This document shows, one piece after another, positions 1,080 to 7,551 of a stretch of DNA of 34,331 nucleotides. Each line of letters begins with the position of its first letter. The stretch's first letter is position 1. A model generated the notes under the pieces. It did not search any database. It saw only the letters and a program-made list of their open reading frames with translations, and was not told the origin of the DNA. The DNA comes from Isosphaeraceae bacterium. GTDB taxonomy: Bacteria; Planctomycetota; Planctomycetia; Isosphaerales; Isosphaeraceae. The position numbers and the translations under genes were made by a program. The stretch covers positions 1 to 34,331 of the forward strand of contig JANXSX010000029.1 in NCBI GenBank assembly GCA_025356475.1, written 5' to 3'.

Positions 1080-1257
1080 AGAACGCACGTTCGGCCTAGC
1101 CGGCGGTTAGACAGAACGCGACAGCCGGCCCCCGCCGTCACCGGCCATCTCCCCACGCTCGAAGCGTCCGTCCGATGAGCAAGCTCTCACCCAGCGCCCT
1201 CGAGCGTAACGGACCTGTCAACCCGCATCAAGCCTTCGCCGCGTTACTGCCTAACGA
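1028..1257 (-). repeat. ORF-less integron cassette with its attC, copy A of a duplicated 230 bp unit
   Basis: This stretch is repeated at 3214-3445 with three substitutions, one 1-base indel and one 3-base indel. It is bounded by the cores of two attC sites: it starts, in cassette orientation, with TTAGGCAGTAACG and ends with its own attC at 1079-1024. A short minus-strand ORF present in copy B is stopped by TGA at codon 13 here, so the unit is probably non-coding. Inside it, GTTAG(G/A)YAGAACGC occurs twice (1073-1086 and 1106-1119). Confidence 0.8.
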
Positions 1258-1343
1258 TCAAGCTCAGTGGCCGGGGGGCTGGAGAGACGTGGTGTCGCGC
1301 ACCACCGTGACGCCCCCCGGTCCAGTGCAGCGCCTTGTTCGGC
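1249..1343 (-). repeat. Integron attC site, long form (95 nt), downstream of the SpoIIE gene
   Basis: On the minus strand: R'' GCCGAAC (1343-1337), arm GCTGCACTGGACCGGGGGGC, an internal hairpin (GTGGTG/CACCAC), arm GCCCCCCGGCCACTGAGC, spacer, R' GTTAGGC (1255-1249). The two arms pair over about 18 bp with one mismatch and two extrahelical bases (G after GCT, A after CTGG) in the L'' arm, the hallmark of attC. It lies 39 nt after the stop of the SpoIIE-domain gene. Confidence 0.85.
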
Positions 1344-1382: not shown

Positions 1383-3185
1383 TCACGTGAATTTAATAAT
1401 GACTGCCGTGCAATCATCAAATGGGGTTATGGCACCGCCGAAGTCGGCCAGATCACGAAAGAGCGCCTGAATAGTCTCGGCGGGAGCTTCGTCGCGGTGC
1501 GCTCGAATGACACTTAAGGCGCGCGCGATGCCGTAAGATAGGTTCGCCTCTGACCGAGCATCCACGATCCCATCGGTGAAAAAGAAGAGCAGGTCGTCTA
1601 CTTGGAGCGCAGCCGCAGCAGCGCTGGAATACTCGGTGCCGGGCAGGATCCCGAGCGGAAAGCCCGTACTGTTCGCCGACCGGACCTCGCCGTGACGATC
1701 CATGACGAAACCGGGACAGTGCCCGGCATTCACGTATTCCAAGGCACCGGTGCACGGGTCGATCACCACCAGGAGGAGCGTGACAAAGTGGTCCGTGGGG
1801 AGGCCGTCGCTGAGGAGCTGATTGAGGAGCGTAACCAGGCGACCCGGGTCGGAATGGGTGAGCGCGAGTGCCCGCAGGCATGCGCGGGTTTCCGCGATGA
1901 TAAGCGCGGCGCCGATCCCGTGACCACTGGCATCGCCGACGACAATCGCCAAGCGACCGTCCGGCACGCGGAACACGTCCCAGTAATCCCCGCCCGTCTC
2001 CTGGGTGGGCTGTGCCGCGCCCGCGATGGCGAGGCCAGGCAACTCGGGCATCACCGCCGGAAGCAGTCCCTGCTGAATCGCTCGCGCCAGGACGAATTCG
2101 TAGTCGCGGTCATGCACGATCCTTTCCGCGCGGCGCCATTCGACAAACTGACTGATCTGGCTGCCAATGCTGTCCATCATGTCGAGCAGTTGCTTATCCA
2201 ACGGCTGGATTTCGCGGCTGAAAAACTCCATGATGCCCAGCACGTCGCCGCCGTTATGGAGTGCAAAACCACAGGCCGCGCCCAGCCCCTCGCGGGCAGC
2301 CACTGCCGCCCGTGGAAAGTTGTCATCGCGAGTCACATCCGGAATCCAGGCGGGAGTGCGGTTGGCCCAAACCCGGCCCGGCATGCCGATCCCGCAGACG
2401 AAGGTTCTCTCTCGGCTGACGCGCTCAAACTCCGGCACCAACACCGTTGGCAGGTGCCACATATCGACGCAGCGTAGCACTTGGGCCGTTTGGTCAATGG
2501 TCCATAGCGCGCCTACGTCCCAGCCGAGGCATTCGCAAATGGCTTGAAGAAGGTGCGGCGCCGCCGCAAGGATCTCGGTGGACTCCGCTAAAACTCGCGT
2601 CACGGCGTGTTCGACGGTCACACGCCGGTGGGAAAGCACACGCTCGTTAATGTCTTCGAACAGCAAGCCGATACAATCATTGCCCAGCGGGAACGCGTGG
2701 CGGGAACACCAGCGTTCCGCGATGCGATCATCCCCATACAGTCTATCCCCTATGTCTATCCCTCGATCCGTAGAGAGGACATCCAGCATCGGCAATACGT
2801 CTGCTTCTACCGCGTTGGGAAACGCCTCGACGATGGTTTTGCCGAATTGCTCTTCGAGACGAATCCCTAACAACCGGGAGGCAGCAGGATTGGCGGTGAT
2901 CAGCCGTAACGTGGTCCATTCATGGCGGTCGTCGGCGCGGAAAACGAGAAATCCCGCCGGGCTGTTCTGGAAGATCTCCTCAAATAACCCTGTCATCTGC
3001 TCCGGCGCGAGGGGCATGCCGATGTGCATTTCCCCCTCCGCTTCAACCCAATCTTGCAATGGGCTGCCTTCCGACCGGCCACGTGCCACCCATTTACCGT
3101 ACGCGAGTGTGTTAACGGCCTCATGAAACGTGTGGTTGTTCGGTGACGCGGTGGCTTGCTGGCCCCCCGTTGGCTGTAAGTTCAT
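1383..3185 (-). CDS. DUF2934-PAS-GAF-SpoIIE (PP2C-type) serine phosphatase, integron cassette gene
   Basis: A 600-residue cytoplasmic signalling protein. Residues about 20-52 resemble DUF2934 (AYGKWVARGRSEGSPLQDW). A PAS domain spans about 66-185 (NSPAGFLVF, ANPAASRLLG) and a GAF domain about 195-350 (GIGMPGRVW, LGIMEFFSREI). A SpoIIE/RsbU-type PP2C phosphatase follows at about 385-600. It has the metal-binding acidic motifs ETGGDYWD (near 396-403), VGDASGHGIGAAL, FFTDGIVDAR and FDDCTAVI. Such proteins usually dephosphorylate anti-sigma-antagonist proteins in partner switching; no partner is visible here. The ATG at 3185 lies about 30 nt inside the cassette boundary set by the attC at 3210-3265, and the stop precedes the attC at 1249-1343. 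At 1.8 kb it is a large cassette insert. Confidence 0.9.
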   Translation of the reverse strand: MNLQPTGGQQATASPNNHTFHEAVNTLAYGKWVARGRSEGSPLQDWVEAEGEMHIGMPLAPEQMTGLFEEIFQNSPAGFLVFRADDRHEWTTLRLITANPAASRLLGIRLEEQFGKTIVEAFPNAVEADVLPMLDVLSTDRGIDIGDRLYGDDRIAERWCSRHAFPLGNDCIGLLFEDINERVLSHRRVTVEHAVTRVLAESTEILAAAPHLLQAICECLGWDVGALWTIDQTAQVLRCVDMWHLPTVLVPEFERVSRERTFVCGIGMPGRVWANRTPAWIPDVTRDDNFPRAAVAAREGLGAACGFALHNGGDVLGIMEFFSREIQPLDKQLLDMMDSIGSQISQFVEWRRAERIVHDRDYEFVLARAIQQGLLPAVMPELPGLAIAGAAQPTQETGGDYWDVFRVPDGRLAIVVGDASGHGIGAALIIAETRACLRALALTHSDPGRLVTLLNQLLSDGLPTDHFVTLLLVVIDPCTGALEYVNAGHCPGFVMDRHGEVRSANSTGFPLGILPGTEYSSAAAAALQVDDLLFFFTDGIVDARSEANLSYGIARALSVIRAHRDEAPAETIQALFRDLADFGGAITPFDDCTAVIIKFT

Positions 3186-3209: not shown

Positions 3210-3265
3210 AGAGAATGAGGAGTTAAGCGGATGTACTCATCTGCTTCAACTCCTAATGGTTAGGC
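3210..3265 (-). repeat. Integron attC site (copy B, 56 nt)
   Basis: On the minus strand: R'' GCCTAAC (3265-3259), arm GGAGTTGAAGCAGATG, loop AGTA, arm CATCCGCTTAACTCC, then the R' position ATTCTCT (3216-3210). The arms are the same as in the copy at 1024-1079. The R' heptamer no longer matches GTTRRRY; its last six bases belong to the following SpoIIE cassette, whose gene starts 25 nt further on. Confidence 0.75.
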
Positions 3266-3445
3266 AGAACGCACGTTCGGCCTAGCCGGCGGTTAGACAG
3301 AACGCGACAGCCGGCCCCGCCGTCACCGGCCATCTCCCCACGCTCGAAGCGTCCGTCCGATGAGCAAGCTCTCGCCCAGCGCCCTCGAGCGTCGTAACGG
3401 ACCTGTCAACCCGCATCAAGCCTTCGCCGCGTTACTGCCTAACGA
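3214..3445 (-). repeat. ORF-less integron cassette with its attC, copy B of the duplicated unit
   Basis: This is the second copy of the unit at 1028-1257, about 98% identical. In cassette orientation it runs from TTAGGCAGTAACG (just inside 3442) to the attC ending at 3210. A 44-codon minus-strand ORF (3416-3282) is open here but is interrupted in copy A, so I do not call it a gene. The GTTAGRCAGAACGC motif occurs at 3259-3272 and 3292-3305. Confidence 0.8.
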
Positions 3446-3491
3446 CCAGGTTCAGCGACGGTACTCCGTCCGCTGCAACCGTATGTTAGGC
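3437..3491 (-). repeat. Integron attC site, canonical short form (55 nt)
   Basis: On the minus strand: R'' GCCTAAC (3491-3485), spacer ATAC, arm GGTTGCAGCGGACGG (3480-3466), loop AGTA, arm CCGTCGCTGAACC (3461-3449), spacer TGGTC, R' GTTAGGC (3443-3437). The arms pair perfectly apart from two extrahelical G residues, after GGTT and after CAGCG. This matches the architecture of textbook attC sites such as attC-aadA7. It lies downstream of the haloperoxidase gene stop at 3600. This is the clearest attC in the window. Confidence 0.92.
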
Positions 3492-3513
3492 CCAATTCCT
3501 GTGGATTGGGTGG

Positions 3514-3535
3514 CACTGGTCGTACTCGACCAGTG
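3514..3535 (-). terminator. Perfect 9-bp hairpin after the haloperoxidase gene
   Basis: CACTGGTCG pairs with CGACCAGTG around a TACT loop, 65 nt after the stop codon at 3600 and just before the attC. It has no T-run on the minus strand, so a terminator role is only a guess. Its loop TACT (AGTA on the minus strand) is the same as in the neighbouring attC sites. Confidence 0.4.
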
Positions 3536-3599
3536 CTTTGACCAAACATGAATGCACTTGTCGATTCTGACCAGTGTCACCTGCTGCGGAACAACCGGC

Positions 3600-4943
3600 T
3601 CAGGCGAACGCCACCTTCGCCTTCTCCGCGATCGCCTTCCCGACCTCCTCCCCGCCGCAAGCGTCGAAGTCCCAATGCACGCCAAGAAATATCCGGCTCT
3701 CGCTGTTCTGTTCGATCGCCACTTGCAGTGAAAACGTCTGTTCCCACCGCGGCCGGGTCACACCGTTGTGGTCGGTCGTCGTGCCGTTGAACTCGTCGGA
3801 CATGAACTTCACGGACACGTCCTTCGGCTTCTTTCCGAGCAACTTTGCGGCCGTCTCGAAGCAAGCCGTTCCGAACGTCGCGTGCCCGGATGGATACGCC
3901 GGGAAGTTCGGGGTGAAGTTGTCGGTCTGGGCGAGTGGCCCGATGATCGGTCCGGGGATCGGGTTGCTCCGCGGTGCGCCGAGCGGCCGCCAGAACGGGT
4001 TGCCGGGGATCTTCCGCAAGGTGTTGCCGTCCCCCGCCCCGGTCGGTCCCCAACCGGCATCCGCCTCGCGGATGCCTACGATCGGTCGCCACACGTCGTA
4101 CTCGTACTTCCAGTGCCACGCGGCGATCCCGGCGTCGGCCATGGCCGCGTTCACCGCCGTTAGCAGTCGTACCCGCTTCGGGTGTTCTAGCAGGGGCAGA
4201 GCCGGGATCGCGCGCACGATCTGGTTATACAGCCGCGGCGGGGTGCCGAGTTTGTTCGACCCGTCGTACCCCCAGAAGTTGCCGACGGCCGCCATGTGCC
4301 GGGCCTTGGTGTTCCGCTCGGTCAGGTTCGCGCTGCCGTCCTCGTAAACGTGCTTGTACGCGTCGGCGTATTTCTGACTGTTCAGCGCCGGCGGCGGGCC
4401 GAGTGGGGCATCCGTTACGACGTCACTGATCACGAACGGGTGTACCTTGCCCCACGTCCGACCGAGCGTCGTCTGGCCGGGGTTGAACGGGTCCGGGCGG
4501 TGCCGACCGGCGGCGTTGTCGAAGTTCGTGTCCTCCTGCGGGTTGGCCGACCCGTCCCCGGCACGGGCGTTGACCCACGCATCGCCAACGAGTGTGCCGT
4601 ACGCGACCAAAGCCGGATCGACACCCGCGTGCGCCGGGCGGAGCATCGCGATCGTTGCCCCGAAGTCCGGGTACAGGCGTTCGGCCGCGCGGAACCCGGC
4701 CGCGAGGAGGGCCACCGTGCCGGCCGCGTCGTCGGATCCACTGCCCGTCGGCTTTGGCGGCAGCCCGCACAGCCGAGCCGAAAACGCGACCGTCACCTGG
4801 GCGTAGGCGTCGTGGGCGGCGAGGTGGATGATCGCCATGGCGCGGGCCGTCTTCGTCGGCCCGCCATGGCTCGGCTTGTGGCCGTTGCTGAAGTCGTCGG
4901 CGACGAGCCGCATCGACAGATCGTTGATGATCTCGATACTCAC
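3600..4943 (-). CDS. Vanadium-dependent haloperoxidase / PAP2-family protein
   Basis: A 447-residue protein of the vanadium chloroperoxidase-like PAP2 fold. Starting from the GTG at 4943 (AGGAG seven nt upstream), all vanadate-binding residues appear with the expected spacing. These are Lys279 and Arg286 (WKYEYDVWRP), Ser352-Gly353-His354 (YPSGHATFG), Arg417 and the apical His423 (SRIFLGVHW). They correspond to K353, R360, S402-G403-H404, R490 and H496 of the Curvularia enzyme. No signal peptide is visible. The frame stays open to an ATG at 5033, but that extension has no ribosome site. It is the last gene of a three-gene minus-strand cluster and is followed by an attC. Whether it oxidises halides or acts as a phosphatase cannot be told from sequence. 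Confidence 0.9.
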   Translation of the reverse strand: MSIEIINDLSMRLVADDFSNGHKPSHGGPTKTARAMAIIHLAAHDAYAQVTVAFSARLCGLPPKPTGSGSDDAAGTVALLAAGFRAAERLYPDFGATIAMLRPAHAGVDPALVAYGTLVGDAWVNARAGDGSANPQEDTNFDNAAGRHRPDPFNPGQTTLGRTWGKVHPFVISDVVTDAPLGPPPALNSQKYADAYKHVYEDGSANLTERNTKARHMAAVGNFWGYDGSNKLGTPPRLYNQIVRAIPALPLLEHPKRVRLLTAVNAAMADAGIAAWHWKYEYDVWRPIVGIREADAGWGPTGAGDGNTLRKIPGNPFWRPLGAPRSNPIPGPIIGPLAQTDNFTPNFPAYPSGHATFGTACFETAAKLLGKKPKDVSVKFMSDEFNGTTTDHNGVTRPRWEQTFSLQVAIEQNSESRIFLGVHWDFDACGGEEVGKAIAEKAKVAFA

Positions 4944-5075
4944 GGGCGAACTCCTGAAATGGTAAAGGTCAAACGAGGCGGAAGATCTAGCCGTATAGAC
5001 TCGCACCAATGCGGTGCTATCGTCCCACAACACCAGAACTTGCGAGGACGGTATCCCACACCTCGCACATTCACG

Positions 5076-6113
5076 TTAATGGTCCAGGAATCGGAAGTCG
5101 GGTCCCCGAATTCCGTTGCCGGTGCCACTCGGGATGTCGGCATTGAGAAGGGCCAAAGCCTTGGAAGTCAGATCCATGTTCATCCTGCGGATCGCGTCCG
5201 AGAGCTTTTGTGGATCCCCCACCGCCCACGCGTCGTGGAGAAGCTTGAGCATGGCCGTGTACTCGCGGTCGAAGGCGTCGGAATCCGAATAGCCGCCGGG
5301 CGGCACCTCCGCCACAAAGTAGAGGTCGTCCGGCCGCGGGAAGGGCAACGGGGCACCCGTGAACGACCATCCGGTCGGGGCGTTCGCGTCGGGTTGGAGC
5401 TTGCGTTCGGCGTGGATTTGTCCGAACCGATAATAGTGCGCGAGTTCCCTCTCGGGTGCGATGGCAAGTCTCCGGCCATCGGCGAACGGGGAGGTCGATG
5501 TCCCCTCGCCTTGTCGCTTGATCAGGTCGATCGCCGCCTGGGCTTCCGCAACGGTGTGGATGACGACCAAGTCGCGCAGGCGTCCGGGGGGAGTCGTCGT
5601 GAGTTGCCGGTCCGTGGAGAATGTCGGATTCACATCCGCGAGCGTCTGGCTCAACGCGTCGTAGAACTCGCCGATTGTCGCGAAGCCTGTCCGCACCCGC
5701 AAGGCGAGCGGATGTTCGGGCAGTTCGATCTGCATGAACTGGTAGACCTGCTCCTTGTTCCCTGCTTCGTCGCGGGACAGGCCGGCCAGACTGACGATCA
5801 GTCCTTCGTGGACGTGGCCGGGAAGTTCACTGGGGTATCGTGGGGTGAAATTCTCCGAGTAAATGTTCGGGGTGCCGCCCAGGCCCGCCAACATGTTGCA
5901 GCCCAGGCCCATGTGCGCCATTTCCTGAAGCAAAATCTGCCGGAAGGTCTGCCGGATGTCGTCGTTCACCTCCACGTCCTTGAGCGACCAGTACGCACAC
6001 AGGTACGGCGGGATCGTGGCCCATTCGAGCCGGATCGCTTCCTGAAGCGCGTCGGTGAGCCACTGCACGTCGCGTTCGGTGGCCGGTACGGTCATCAATC
6101 CCTGGACGGACAT
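5076..6113 (-). CDS. Ferritin-like protein of the VioB / iminophenylpyruvate dimer synthase-like family
   Basis: A 345-residue protein. Residues about 20-230 match the ferritin-like domain found in VioB-type iminophenylpyruvate dimer synthases. Recognisable blocks are LEWATIPPYLCAYWSLKD (Glu30), LLQEMAHMGLGCNMLAGLGG (Glu64-x-x-His67), a conserved tryptophan-poor middle, EGTSTSPF and ELAHYYRFGQI (Glu223, His226). The paired Glu/ExxH motifs suggest a metal-binding four-helix bundle. The ATG at 6113 has GAGGG nine nt upstream. It lies 74 nt after the cupredoxin gene and 132 nt before the haloperoxidase gene, all minus strand, probably one transcript. The substrate is unknown; family members act in tryptophan dimer and oxidative pathways. 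Confidence 0.8.
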   Translation of the reverse strand: MSVQGLMTVPATERDVQWLTDALQEAIRLEWATIPPYLCAYWSLKDVEVNDDIRQTFRQILLQEMAHMGLGCNMLAGLGGTPNIYSENFTPRYPSELPGHVHEGLIVSLAGLSRDEAGNKEQVYQFMQIELPEHPLALRVRTGFATIGEFYDALSQTLADVNPTFSTDRQLTTTPPGRLRDLVVIHTVAEAQAAIDLIKRQGEGTSTSPFADGRRLAIAPERELAHYYRFGQIHAERKLQPDANAPTGWSFTGAPLPFPRPDDLYFVAEVPPGGYSDSDAFDREYTAMLKLLHDAWAVGDPQKLSDAIRRMNMDLTSKALALLNADIPSGTGNGIRGPDFRFLDH

Positions 6114-6187
6114 GATTTGCCCTCAAACTCGATAGTCGGAATCCAGTCGATCGCAGCAAAGCGTGAGTCACTACCACTTCTGGCCTA

Positions 6188-6526
6188 CTACTTGTGCCCT
6201 TCGGAGTGAGCCTGAATCGCCGCTTCGCGTGAGAAGCCTTCGGTCATGGACCCTCGCAATGTCACGACGACGTGGCCCTTCATGAAGTTCATGTGCGGCT
6301 GGCAGAAGTACTCGAAGCCCGTGGCGTCGCTCGCTTGCGTGAACTCCACGGGGTCGGAAGTCTCGTTCTGTCCGAGCAACCGGGTCATGAACGCGGGCGC
6401 ATCGTTCCGCTGGGCGTTGTGCCGTGCGCCGTCGAGGTTCTGCCACTGGATCGAGTCCCCGACCGCGATCACCACCGCCTCCGGCACGAACGCAAAGCCT
6501 TGCATCTTCACGACGACTGTGGCCAT
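6188..6526 (-). CDS. Cupredoxin (plastocyanin/amicyanin-like blue copper protein)
   Basis: A 112-residue single-domain cupredoxin. The type 1 copper ligands are visible: His36 (GARHNAQ), Cys75, His78 and Met82 (YFCQPHMNFMKG, the C-x2-H-x3-M arrangement). Early beta strands contain GFAFVPEAVVIAVGDSIQW. The ATG at 6526 follows AGGAGCTGATGAC. It has no signal peptide, which is unusual because most such proteins are exported; either the protein is cytoplasmic or it is carried out otherwise. It is the first gene of the cluster with the ferritin-like and haloperoxidase genes and lies next to the putative integron insertion point. A role as electron carrier to one of the two neighbours is an inference from context. 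Confidence 0.85.
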   Translation of the reverse strand: MATVVVKMQGFAFVPEAVVIAVGDSIQWQNLDGARHNAQRNDAPAFMTRLLGQNETSDPVEFTQASDATGFEYFCQPHMNFMKGHVVVTLRGSMTEGFSREAAIQAHSEGHK

Positions 6527-6577
6527 GTCATCAGCTCCTGTTTGGAAACTTGGAAACGTTACCCATCGGCTTCCGCC

Positions 6578-6651
6578 GCCTAAAAAGCATTAGGCAGAAG
6601 GGAGTCTGGCTAATCCAATTGTGTATTCTGCCTAAAACGCCCGTGTTAGGA
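6578..6651. other. Cluster of attC/attI-like core heptamers (candidate integron insertion point)
   Basis: Four core-like sequences lie here: GCCTAAA (6578-6584), ATTAGGC (6589-6595), GCCTAAA (6630-6636) and GTTAGGA (6645-6651). A 10-bp perfect inverted repeat, TTAGGCAGAA (6590-6599) and TTCTGCCTAA (6626-6635), joins them. No L-type arms are present, so these are not complete attC sites. The position between the integrase-like remnant and the first minus-strand gene is where attI would lie. Confidence 0.4.
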
Positions 6652-6739
6652 GCGAAGCGTTCTTGACGGATATGATTCAATCAAGATGGCATGCTCGCTC
6701 AGCGATTTGGCCGTGTCAAGAAATATCCGGAGAAAAACA

Positions 6740-6829
6740 ATGGCTGAGCAGTTCACTCCTGGGAAAGCGCCTCAGTTGCTCGATCAAATCTGGCAAAAAC
6801 TGCGGCTTTTGCACGATTCCATCTTATAA
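6740..6829 (+). pseudogene. Remnant of an integron integrase (intI) N-terminus, 29 codons
   Basis: ATG at 6740, preceded by GGAGAAAAACA, opens a 29-residue frame that stops at TAA 6827-6829. Residues 11-28 (PQLLDQIWQKLRLLHDSI) resemble the start of integron-type tyrosine recombinases, which typically read 'P.LLDQVR..LR..HYSIRTE..Y..WI'. The similarity ends exactly where the 219 bp inverted-repeat element begins (6828), and no integrase sequence resumes up to 8000. The strand is opposite to the attC-bearing cassettes, as expected for intI. The call rests on a short match plus context, so it is tentative. Confidence 0.45.
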
Positions 6830-7046
6830 GCTTCGCTTAACCCGTTATCAACGCATCTATCTTTGAAAGTAGGTAGTCAGTGGCGAGTTCAATCTCCCGA
6901 GAAGAAGGTCCTACCGACCTATCGAAATGCCTGCCCTGGCGATGAGGTAGGCGTGGGAGTTCGTATCCGGGTGTTGCGAAGAGAATACATTCCGTCGCGA
7001 TAAATTGATGATCGTTTGTATGTTCAGAACGGGTTAAGCGATGCTT
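6828..7046. mobile_element. 219 bp element with 19-bp terminal inverted repeats (MITE-like, or an unusually long attC)
   Basis: The ends AAGCTTCGCTTAACCCGTT (6828-6846) and, on the other strand, AAGCATCGCTTAACCCGTT (7046-7028) match at 18 of 19 positions. The element interrupts the integrase-like reading frame. A 73-codon minus-strand ORF (7058-6837) spans almost all of it and overlaps the toxin stop as TGATG; I cannot assign it. The inner heptamers GCTTAAC and GTTAAGC also fit attC core sites, and the position 12-18 nt after the toxin gene would suit an attC, but the inner arms pair poorly. Confidence 0.5.
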
Positions 7047-7057
7047 TACGCTTAGCA

Positions 7058-7339
7058 TCAGTACACTTGATCGTGAGCACCCAAGGATAAAAGCAGAATC
7101 GCCTCCGAACCTTCGTGTTGCATGTACTCGAAAACCACGCGCAAATCATAGCCCCCGCTGCATGCCCAACAACCCGAAAGCGACCCCTGCAACTTATGCG
7201 TCCGTAACGACGGGTGCGAGGCGTCGGCAGATAACTGTTCGAGAGTTGCCTCGACTGACGCGGCCATCCCCGGCCGAGACTTCAACCAGGCGCGAAGGTC
7301 GCGAGCAAATGCTGGCGAGCGGAACAGCGTCCGGTTCAC
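7058..7339 (-). CDS. RelE/ParE-family toxin of a type II toxin-antitoxin pair
   Basis: A 93-residue protein starting at a GTG (7339) that overlaps the antitoxin stop as GTGA, indicating translational coupling. The fold signature is that of RelE/ParE/YafQ-type mRNA interferases: a basic N-terminal helical part, then LRTHKLQGSLSGCWACSGGYDLRVVFEY and a C-terminal LLLSLGAHDQVY. The pattern 'HKL.G.L.G.W....G..LR..F....' with a final 'G.HD.VY' is typical of the family. A longer frame up to 7384 is open but runs inside the antitoxin gene and is not needed. It sits beyond the putative integrase remnant, on the same strand as the cassettes. Confidence 0.85.
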   Translation of the reverse strand: MNRTLFRSPAFARDLRAWLKSRPGMAASVEATLEQLSADASHPSLRTHKLQGSLSGCWACSGGYDLRVVFEYMQHEGSEAILLLSLGAHDQVY

Positions 7340-7551
7340 GACATCGCCTCTCGCACCAACTCCGCCGCCGTCATTGCCTGGCATTGACCGGCCGCGAACT
7401 CGCGCCGGGCCTGTGCCACGGTTGCCGCCACACGGTCCCGGCCTCGCTCAGCTAAGCGGCGACTTAGGACAGCCACCAACTCGGTCTGTGCCTCTAGATC
7501 GAGTTGCTCGGCCGCATCGAGGACATCGGCGAAAACCAAAATCTGACTCAT
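7336..7551 (-). CDS. Antitoxin of the RelE/ParE-type pair
   Basis: A 71-residue, largely helical protein (ADVLDAAEQLDLEAQTELVAVL, then SRRLAERGRDRV and ARREFAAGQC). It resembles small antitoxins that pair with RelE/ParE toxins in planctomycetes and cyanobacteria. The ATG at 7551 is followed by the toxin gene with a four-base GTGA overlap. The antitoxin presumably binds and neutralises the toxin and represses the operon; this is family knowledge, not shown here. Confidence 0.8.
   Translation of the reverse strand: MSQILVFADVLDAAEQLDLEAQTELVAVLSRRLAERGRDRVAATVAQARREFAAGQCQAMTAAELVREAMS

Follow-up and report, generated by a model that had tools for sequence, protein, structure and literature searches.

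A putative three-gene integron cassette with cupredoxin, PF12902 ferritin-like and probable vanadium haloperoxidase genes in an Isosphaeraceae bacterium

Introduction

Vanadium-dependent haloperoxidases (VHPOs) require H2O2 and a halide. One of the closest described enzymes is the vanadium chloroperoxidase (VCPO) of PDB entry 1idq, a protein of 609 amino acids (aa) from Curvularia inaequalis. The PF12902 domain is found in PDB entry 3hl1 and at the N-terminus of VioB and RebD, multidomain proteins of about 1000 aa. Integron cassettes usually carry one open reading frame (ORF). Here we describe positions 1 to 34,331 of contig JANXSX010000029.1 (assembly GCA_025356475.1, Isosphaeraceae bacterium), hereafter the window, which is one contig of a source genome of 5.92 Mb in 232 contigs, with a gene content that we judge planctomycete-like. 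In this window, genes for a cupredoxin, a stand-alone PF12902 ferritin-like protein and a VHPO lie in tandem; they do not merely adjoin an integron but seem to form the cargo of a single cassette.

All three protein types have been described before; the trio as such did not turn up elsewhere within the searches made. No description of a haloperoxidase/cupredoxin/ferritin-like trio was found in the open PubMed Central (PMC) literature, nor any paper evidently about a haloperoxidase integron cassette. A paper on diazo chemistry (PMC13061610) concerns other enzymes.

Results

Gene layout and anatomy of the putative cassette

The reading we adopt, to which we give about an even chance, is an integron cassette of ~3.1 kb with three genes, probably foreign and probably co-transcribed, which encode a blue-copper protein lacking a signal peptide, a PF12902 protein with a probable di-iron site and a VCPO-type VHPO. 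The genes follow one another on the minus strand, in the order of transcription cupredoxin (6188..6526, 112 aa), PF12902 protein (5076..6113, 345 aa) and VHPO (3600..4943, 447 aa, GTG start), separated by 74 nt and 132 nt, respectively. The tandem arrangement on one strand, as given by an original prediction made from the letters of the window, was thus confirmed. The ORF list starts the VHPO gene at an upstream GTG, 5033; however, 4943 is the preferred start because AGGAG precedes it and the homologue from a Nostoc plasmid begins at the same place. A purine-rich stretch resembling a ribosome-binding site was seen by eye 5' of each gene. No recognisable signal peptide was seen at the start of any of the three proteins when these were read by eye rather than with a predictor, in agreement with the earlier remark that the cupredoxin has none.

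An attC site of 55 bp lies 3' of the VHPO gene (3437-3491, minus strand). Its 7-bp cores, GCCTAAC and GTTAGGC, form an exact inverted repeat, and the inner stem carries single-base bulges. When folded as single-stranded DNA, the site had z scores of -4.83 (minus strand) and -5.56 (plus strand), and on either strand none of 200 shuffles was as stable. By the usual convention, judged from the side of the bulges, its orientation is read as the same as that of the genes. A scan for paired cores returned no canonical attC in the 74-nt or the 132-nt gap. It also picked up a small number of pairs in other parts of the window, with two on the plus strand besides the attC; therefore, the core pattern alone is not significant.

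At the other end, a degenerate attC-like site lies 5' of the cupredoxin gene (6576..6660, minus strand), with an outer CCTAA that pairs with TTAGG in the fold, for which no shuffle control was run. The core about 50 bp before the cupredoxin gene reads TTTAGGC in the window and GTTAGGC in the homologous leader of another contig of the genome (C192). This leader (6584..6814 in the window, minus strand) is partly shared between the two contigs, with 82% identity over 200 nt and 88% over 49 nt, and in C192 it precedes a different gene, PEP-CTERM-like by eye. Because of this comparison, the putative cassette is placed from ~6583 to 3438 on the minus strand (3438..6583), with its 5' end likely at ~6583 and with no canonical attC inside. 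An inverted arrangement of 211 bases at 6832-7042 was also considered as the upstream attC; it was set aside as too long for an attC, and 6576-6660 was favoured.

The genome holds further parts of an integron. A 321-base query made of the attC and its flank gave 11 matches in the genome, the query itself included. Four of these lie in contig C5, aligned over 143-151 nt at 89-91% identity and spaced by ~0.8-1.3 kb. In that contig, the attC copies stand among small ORFs that look toxin-antitoxin-like by eye, in a cassette array adjoining apparent chromosomal genes. An integron integrase gene was found in contig C152 (239 aa, cut by the contig end), with 355.8 bits against a cut-off of 265, whereas the other six matches to the integrase model in the genome were below the cut-off; all 14 control genomes matched weakly and none exceeded it. 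The attC and the integrase gene elsewhere in the same genome bear out the claim of an integron nearby. The attC, the genomic integrase and the repeated attC copies among toxin-antitoxin-like genes are features that the locus shares with chromosomal integron cassettes; the difference is that it holds three ORFs instead of the usual one. This anatomy supports the proposal that the trio may move as a single cassette, namely through the attC at the 3' end, the degenerate core at the 5' end and the lack of a canonical site between the genes.

Relatives of the VHPO and origin of the trio

The nearest relative of the VHPO was WP_341531902.1 from plasmid unnamed5 of Nostoc sp. UHCC 0302, with 60% identity over the full length, whereas identity to the sampled planctomycete sequences was at most 45%. 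In a tree of 19 rows of selected sequences, midpoint-rooted for drawing only, the window protein and the Nostoc protein paired at 100/100, and the wider clade that holds this pair also contained two planctomycete sequences (98/97). The GC content at third codon positions (GC3) of the trio was 80-86%, compared with 74% for the ribonucleotide reductase gene, 69% for the P-type ATPase gene and 71% for an apparent neighbouring cassette with a SpoIIE phosphatase gene, all in the window. The kinship of the VHPO and the GC3 values support, without proving, that the trio was acquired horizontally. No close relatives of the PF12902 protein and the cupredoxin were found, the best identities being 44% and 43%.

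On the Nostoc plasmid, a PF12902 gene lies 1.6 kb downstream of the VHPO gene on the same strand. Its product is different, however, with 544 aa and about 25% identity to the window protein, and the 21-kb stretch held no cupredoxin match at the cut-off applied. Beside the Nostoc PF12902 gene is a quinoprotein maturation cluster, whose genes resemble, in each case below the NCBIfam cut-off, those for a Qhp-type radical SAM maturase, a QhpG/LodB-type flavoprotein and a LodA C-terminal domain. This plasmid cluster (L022:12923-18970) encodes two PF12902 proteins, one of which is joined to a LodA C-terminal-like domain. We considered whether the VHPO of Nostoc belongs to this quinoprotein cluster as a fixed component. 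This was rejected, as a similar Streptomyces cluster had no VHPO match within 8 kb on either side and a relative of the in-between gene adjoins YcaO/TfuA genes in Mesorhizobium.

Conservation in other genomes and plasmids

A total of 286 genomes of the phylum were searched, composed of 199 sampled genomes and 99 relatives with 12 shared, the source genome included; unions were counted by hand. Matches were accepted at E values up to 1e-15 for the VHPO and up to 1e-10 for the PF12902 model. VHPO was found in 29/286 genomes (10/199 of the phylum sample and 22/99 relatives, own genome counted), PF12902 in 12/286 (5/199 and 8/99; the model also matched 1/14 control genomes), and both in 3/286. When the PF12902 protein of the window was itself the query, it matched 1/199 phylum genomes and 2/392 genomes, own genome counted in both. 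Cupredoxin matches at 1e-6 were found in 3/99 relatives, again with the own genome included. Among the three genomes with both VHPO and PF12902, only the window genome had them on the same contig. In a second (G240), they lie on different contigs, at least 6.8 kb from the contig ends; in the third (G200), the distance to a contig end is ~0.2 kb for the VHPO and ~1.6 kb for the PF12902 match, and the two may be linked there.

The regions around the matches were searched as well. By tblastn (E up to 1e-4), queries for the ferritin-like protein, the cupredoxin and two Nostoc ferritin-like proteins found nothing in 20 wide VHPO regions. These regions represent 18 of the 28 other VHPO genomes, and several are cut by short contigs; eight of the remaining genomes were covered by short loci reaching at most ~1.5 kb beyond the match, and two were not covered. 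Conversely, seven planctomycete PF12902 regions, taken from six genomes, held no match to VHPO queries, and neither did ten plasmid PF12902 regions; these ten were a choice, made partly from the 167 plasmid records given next, and not a full survey. On plasmids, relatives of the PF12902 protein were common, with 167 records, all below 60% identity; relatives of the VHPO made up 83 records, of which a single one reached 60%. The cupredoxin matched four plasmid records, all from Sinorhizobium. A scan of genome contigs with the PF12902 protein yielded two Rhizobium loci from 53 pattern matches. In one strain, Methylobacterium oryzae CBMB20, the two families occur on different plasmids: a VHPO gene on pMOC4, and on pMOC1 a PF12902 gene that follows one for a GMC oxidoreductase.

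The check for co-occurrence across genomes therefore did not find the neighbourhood conserved, which is one of the results that the original prediction had itself named as refuting it. With VHPO and PF12902 co-occurring in 3/286 genomes and on one contig only here, a conserved three-gene module is unsupported in the samples searched.

A rather serious competitor, though one we consider less probable, is that three single-gene cassettes became joined by loss of the attC sites between them, in which case the genes would share a vehicle and not a pathway. Decayed sites do occur in the array: the SpoIIE gene is flanked by two copies of a ~240-bp element (1028-1267 and 3214-3455, 95-99% identical) that holds, by eye, an attC-like half without its second core site, and two of the four copies in contig C5 align only from 3446, that is, without the outer core. 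The failure to find the trio elsewhere, and the unequal identities of the nearest relatives (60% for the VHPO, 44% for the PF12902 protein and 43% for the cupredoxin), fit such a fusion as well. However, it is opposed by the two gaps, which hold no canonical attC, and by the uniformly high GC3 of the trio, unlike that of the SpoIIE cassette.

The three proteins

The cupredoxin scored 40.4 bits against PF00127 (4e-10; cut-off 21.2), and the type 1 Cu ligands H36, C75, H78 and M82 can be read from its sequence. Its PDB matches were amicyanin and plastocyanin chains. The NCBIfam cut-offs for amicyanin, plastocyanin and halocyanin were not reached (30, 29.8 and 27.7 bits vs 110.2, 87.85 and 93.8, respectively). 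An unannotated cupredoxin on pSymA of Sinorhizobium meliloti (L109:4971-5250), 43% identical to that of the window, likewise starts without an evident signal peptide. In alignments, the window loop, C75-X2-H78-X3-M82, is one residue longer than that of this relative, and the amicyanin loop is also shorter. The pSymA gene directly precedes an ORF (5302-6867) whose start resembles a signal peptide.

PF12902 is the only Pfam domain in the 345-aa protein (2e-47, 162.3 bits vs cut-off 22.3); no NCBIfam match was obtained, and the match to PDB 3hl1 was weak (0.0067). The label VioB-type given earlier thus holds for the domain but not for the architecture, the stand-alone protein being far shorter than VioB. 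Six residues, E30, E64, H67, E130, E203 and H226, were identical in 16/16 aligned sequences, the window's included. They fit a di-metal site, without proving it, and the centre is probably di-iron. The earlier statement that all metal ligands are present agrees with the residues found in all three proteins, the PF12902 set with this reservation.

In other genomes, PF12902 genes stand beside a GMC oxidoreductase gene in some loci, in or near LodA/Qhp-like quinoprotein clusters in others, and in one case two genes away from a tyrosinase gene. According to a published report, PF12902 genes also lie near fungal lodA/lodB-like genes (PMC4417212). On the Methylobacterium plasmid pMOC1 (L111:5929-9236), genes for a sugar dehydrogenase small subunit, a GMC oxidoreductase and a PF12902 protein stand in a row, which suggests the PF12902 protein as a third component. 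A Streptomyces plasmid with the order SpoIIE-PF12902-PAP2 was considered as a mirror of the window and rejected, since its PAP2 is PAP2_3 and has no real similarity to the VHPO.

The VHPO aligned with VCPO (1idq) over residues 186-434 (phmmer, 4.1e-33), and its eight solved-structure matches were all haloperoxidases, namely VCPO, its variants and one VHPO entry (4cit). In an alignment that joined nine selected sequences from sampled genomes and two from plasmids to that of the window, all seven vanadate ligands, K279, R286, S352, G353, H354, R417 and H423, and the second-shell residues W276, F347 and D227 were identical in 12/12. In VCPO numbering, the enzyme shares all vanadate ligands of VCPO and the equivalents of W350, F397 and D292; it differs in being bacterial and shorter and in falling below the Pfam cut-offs (PAP2 19 vs 27.2, VCPO_2nd 21 vs 27 and VCPO_N 18.2 vs 29.3 bits). 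Because of these scores, we call it VCPO-like and not a member of the curated family. The 3600-4943 product is likely a VCPO-type haloperoxidase.

It is rather improbable that the cassette serves against oxidative stress in the cytosol, with the VHPO mainly removing H2O2, the ferritin-like protein handling iron, the cupredoxin handling copper, and no dedicated product. Redox stress involves peroxide, iron and copper alike, and toxin-antitoxin-like and regulatory genes occur in the same array; however, PF12902 is not known as a family of iron-storage ferritins, several neighbours of PF12902 genes in other genomes encode oxidative enzymes, and the second shell of the VHPO is chloroperoxidase-like. 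It is very improbable that the 3600-4943 protein is a PAP2-superfamily acid phosphatase, for although the ligand set is common to VHPOs and acid phosphatases, PAP2 is among the weak Pfam matches and NCBIfam yielded a single, very weak hit, to an undecaprenyl-diphosphatase model (17.4 bits vs cut-off 250), the solved-structure matches are all haloperoxidases and the VCPO-like W, F and D argue for a peroxidase over a phosphatase.

Discussion

If the adopted reading of a co-transcribed three-gene cassette is right, the genes would be transcribed as one mRNA and their products would be located in the cytosol. The VHPO would use H2O2 and a halide to halogenate or oxidise a small molecule, the PF12902 protein may perform an O2-dependent step on a related substrate, and the cupredoxin might pass electrons to the PF12902 protein, which is a guess from its family. 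The three proteins may act in one pathway, with an oxidative PF12902 step, in favour of which are the oxidative neighbours of some PF12902 genes elsewhere, and a halogenating or oxidising VHPO step. No H2O2-forming enzyme is evident in the cassette. The fuller version, in which a copper carrier, a di-iron oxidase and a vanadium haloperoxidase form a self-contained pathway that spreads as one integron cassette, its cytosolic product being a halogenated or oxidised metabolite not yet described, is in our view unlikely.

Several points weigh against the adopted reading. None of the other genomes and plasmid regions examined yielded the trio, so that co-selection of its genes is hypothetical. The core that marks the 5' end of the cassette is degenerate. 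A promoter scan, confined to the sigma-70-like type, found none on the minus strand (and one plus-strand site vs 0.8 expected), and the 132-nt gap 5' of the VHPO gene could hold a separate promoter. No structure supports the di-iron site, an AlphaFold prediction for the ferritin-like protein having been set aside for its mean pLDDT (predicted local distance difference test) of 38.8. Other PF12902 loci lack a redox enzyme of the kinds named above and have instead neighbours without Pfam matches, regulators, an Ebo-type cluster, a peptidase or a pyruvate:ferredoxin oxidoreductase. Since two planctomycete VHPOs fall in the wider clade of the Nostoc pair, transfer could have run in either direction. 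Of the proposed uncharacterised redox or halogenation module, the part that stood is that each protein is plausible in redox or halogenation chemistry; with a neighbourhood not found conserved, the case for a module is weak overall.

Should the genes function jointly, a small oxidative pathway would be transferred by an integron in a single move, and stand-alone PF12902 proteins and signal-less cupredoxins would gain a testable role. If they do not, the locus still illustrates how a cassette in a planctomycete-like genome can carry several genes.

Neighbouring features

The SpoIIE gene between the ~240-bp repeats (1383..3185, minus strand) encodes a DUF2934-PAS-GAF-SpoIIE phosphatase by Pfam and is apparently carried as an integron cassette. 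A weaker attC-like site lies 3' of it (1249..1343, minus strand; GCCGAAC...GTTAGGC by eye; z -1.89, with 6/200 shuffles as stable). Two diverged copies of the ~240-bp repeat, at 81-83% identity, were found in contig C105. Upstream of the trio, a RelE/YafQ-like toxin is encoded at 7058-7384 on the minus strand (TIGR02385, 28.4 bits vs cut-off 27.9; PF15738, 27.2 bits, below its cut-off of 30). It is preceded by a small ORF (7336-7551, minus strand) without an NCBIfam match, a possible antitoxin by position only. An Rfam search of the window gave nothing at the gathering threshold. At the contig end, 15-299, there is a short transposase-like ORF, ISAs1-like by eye.

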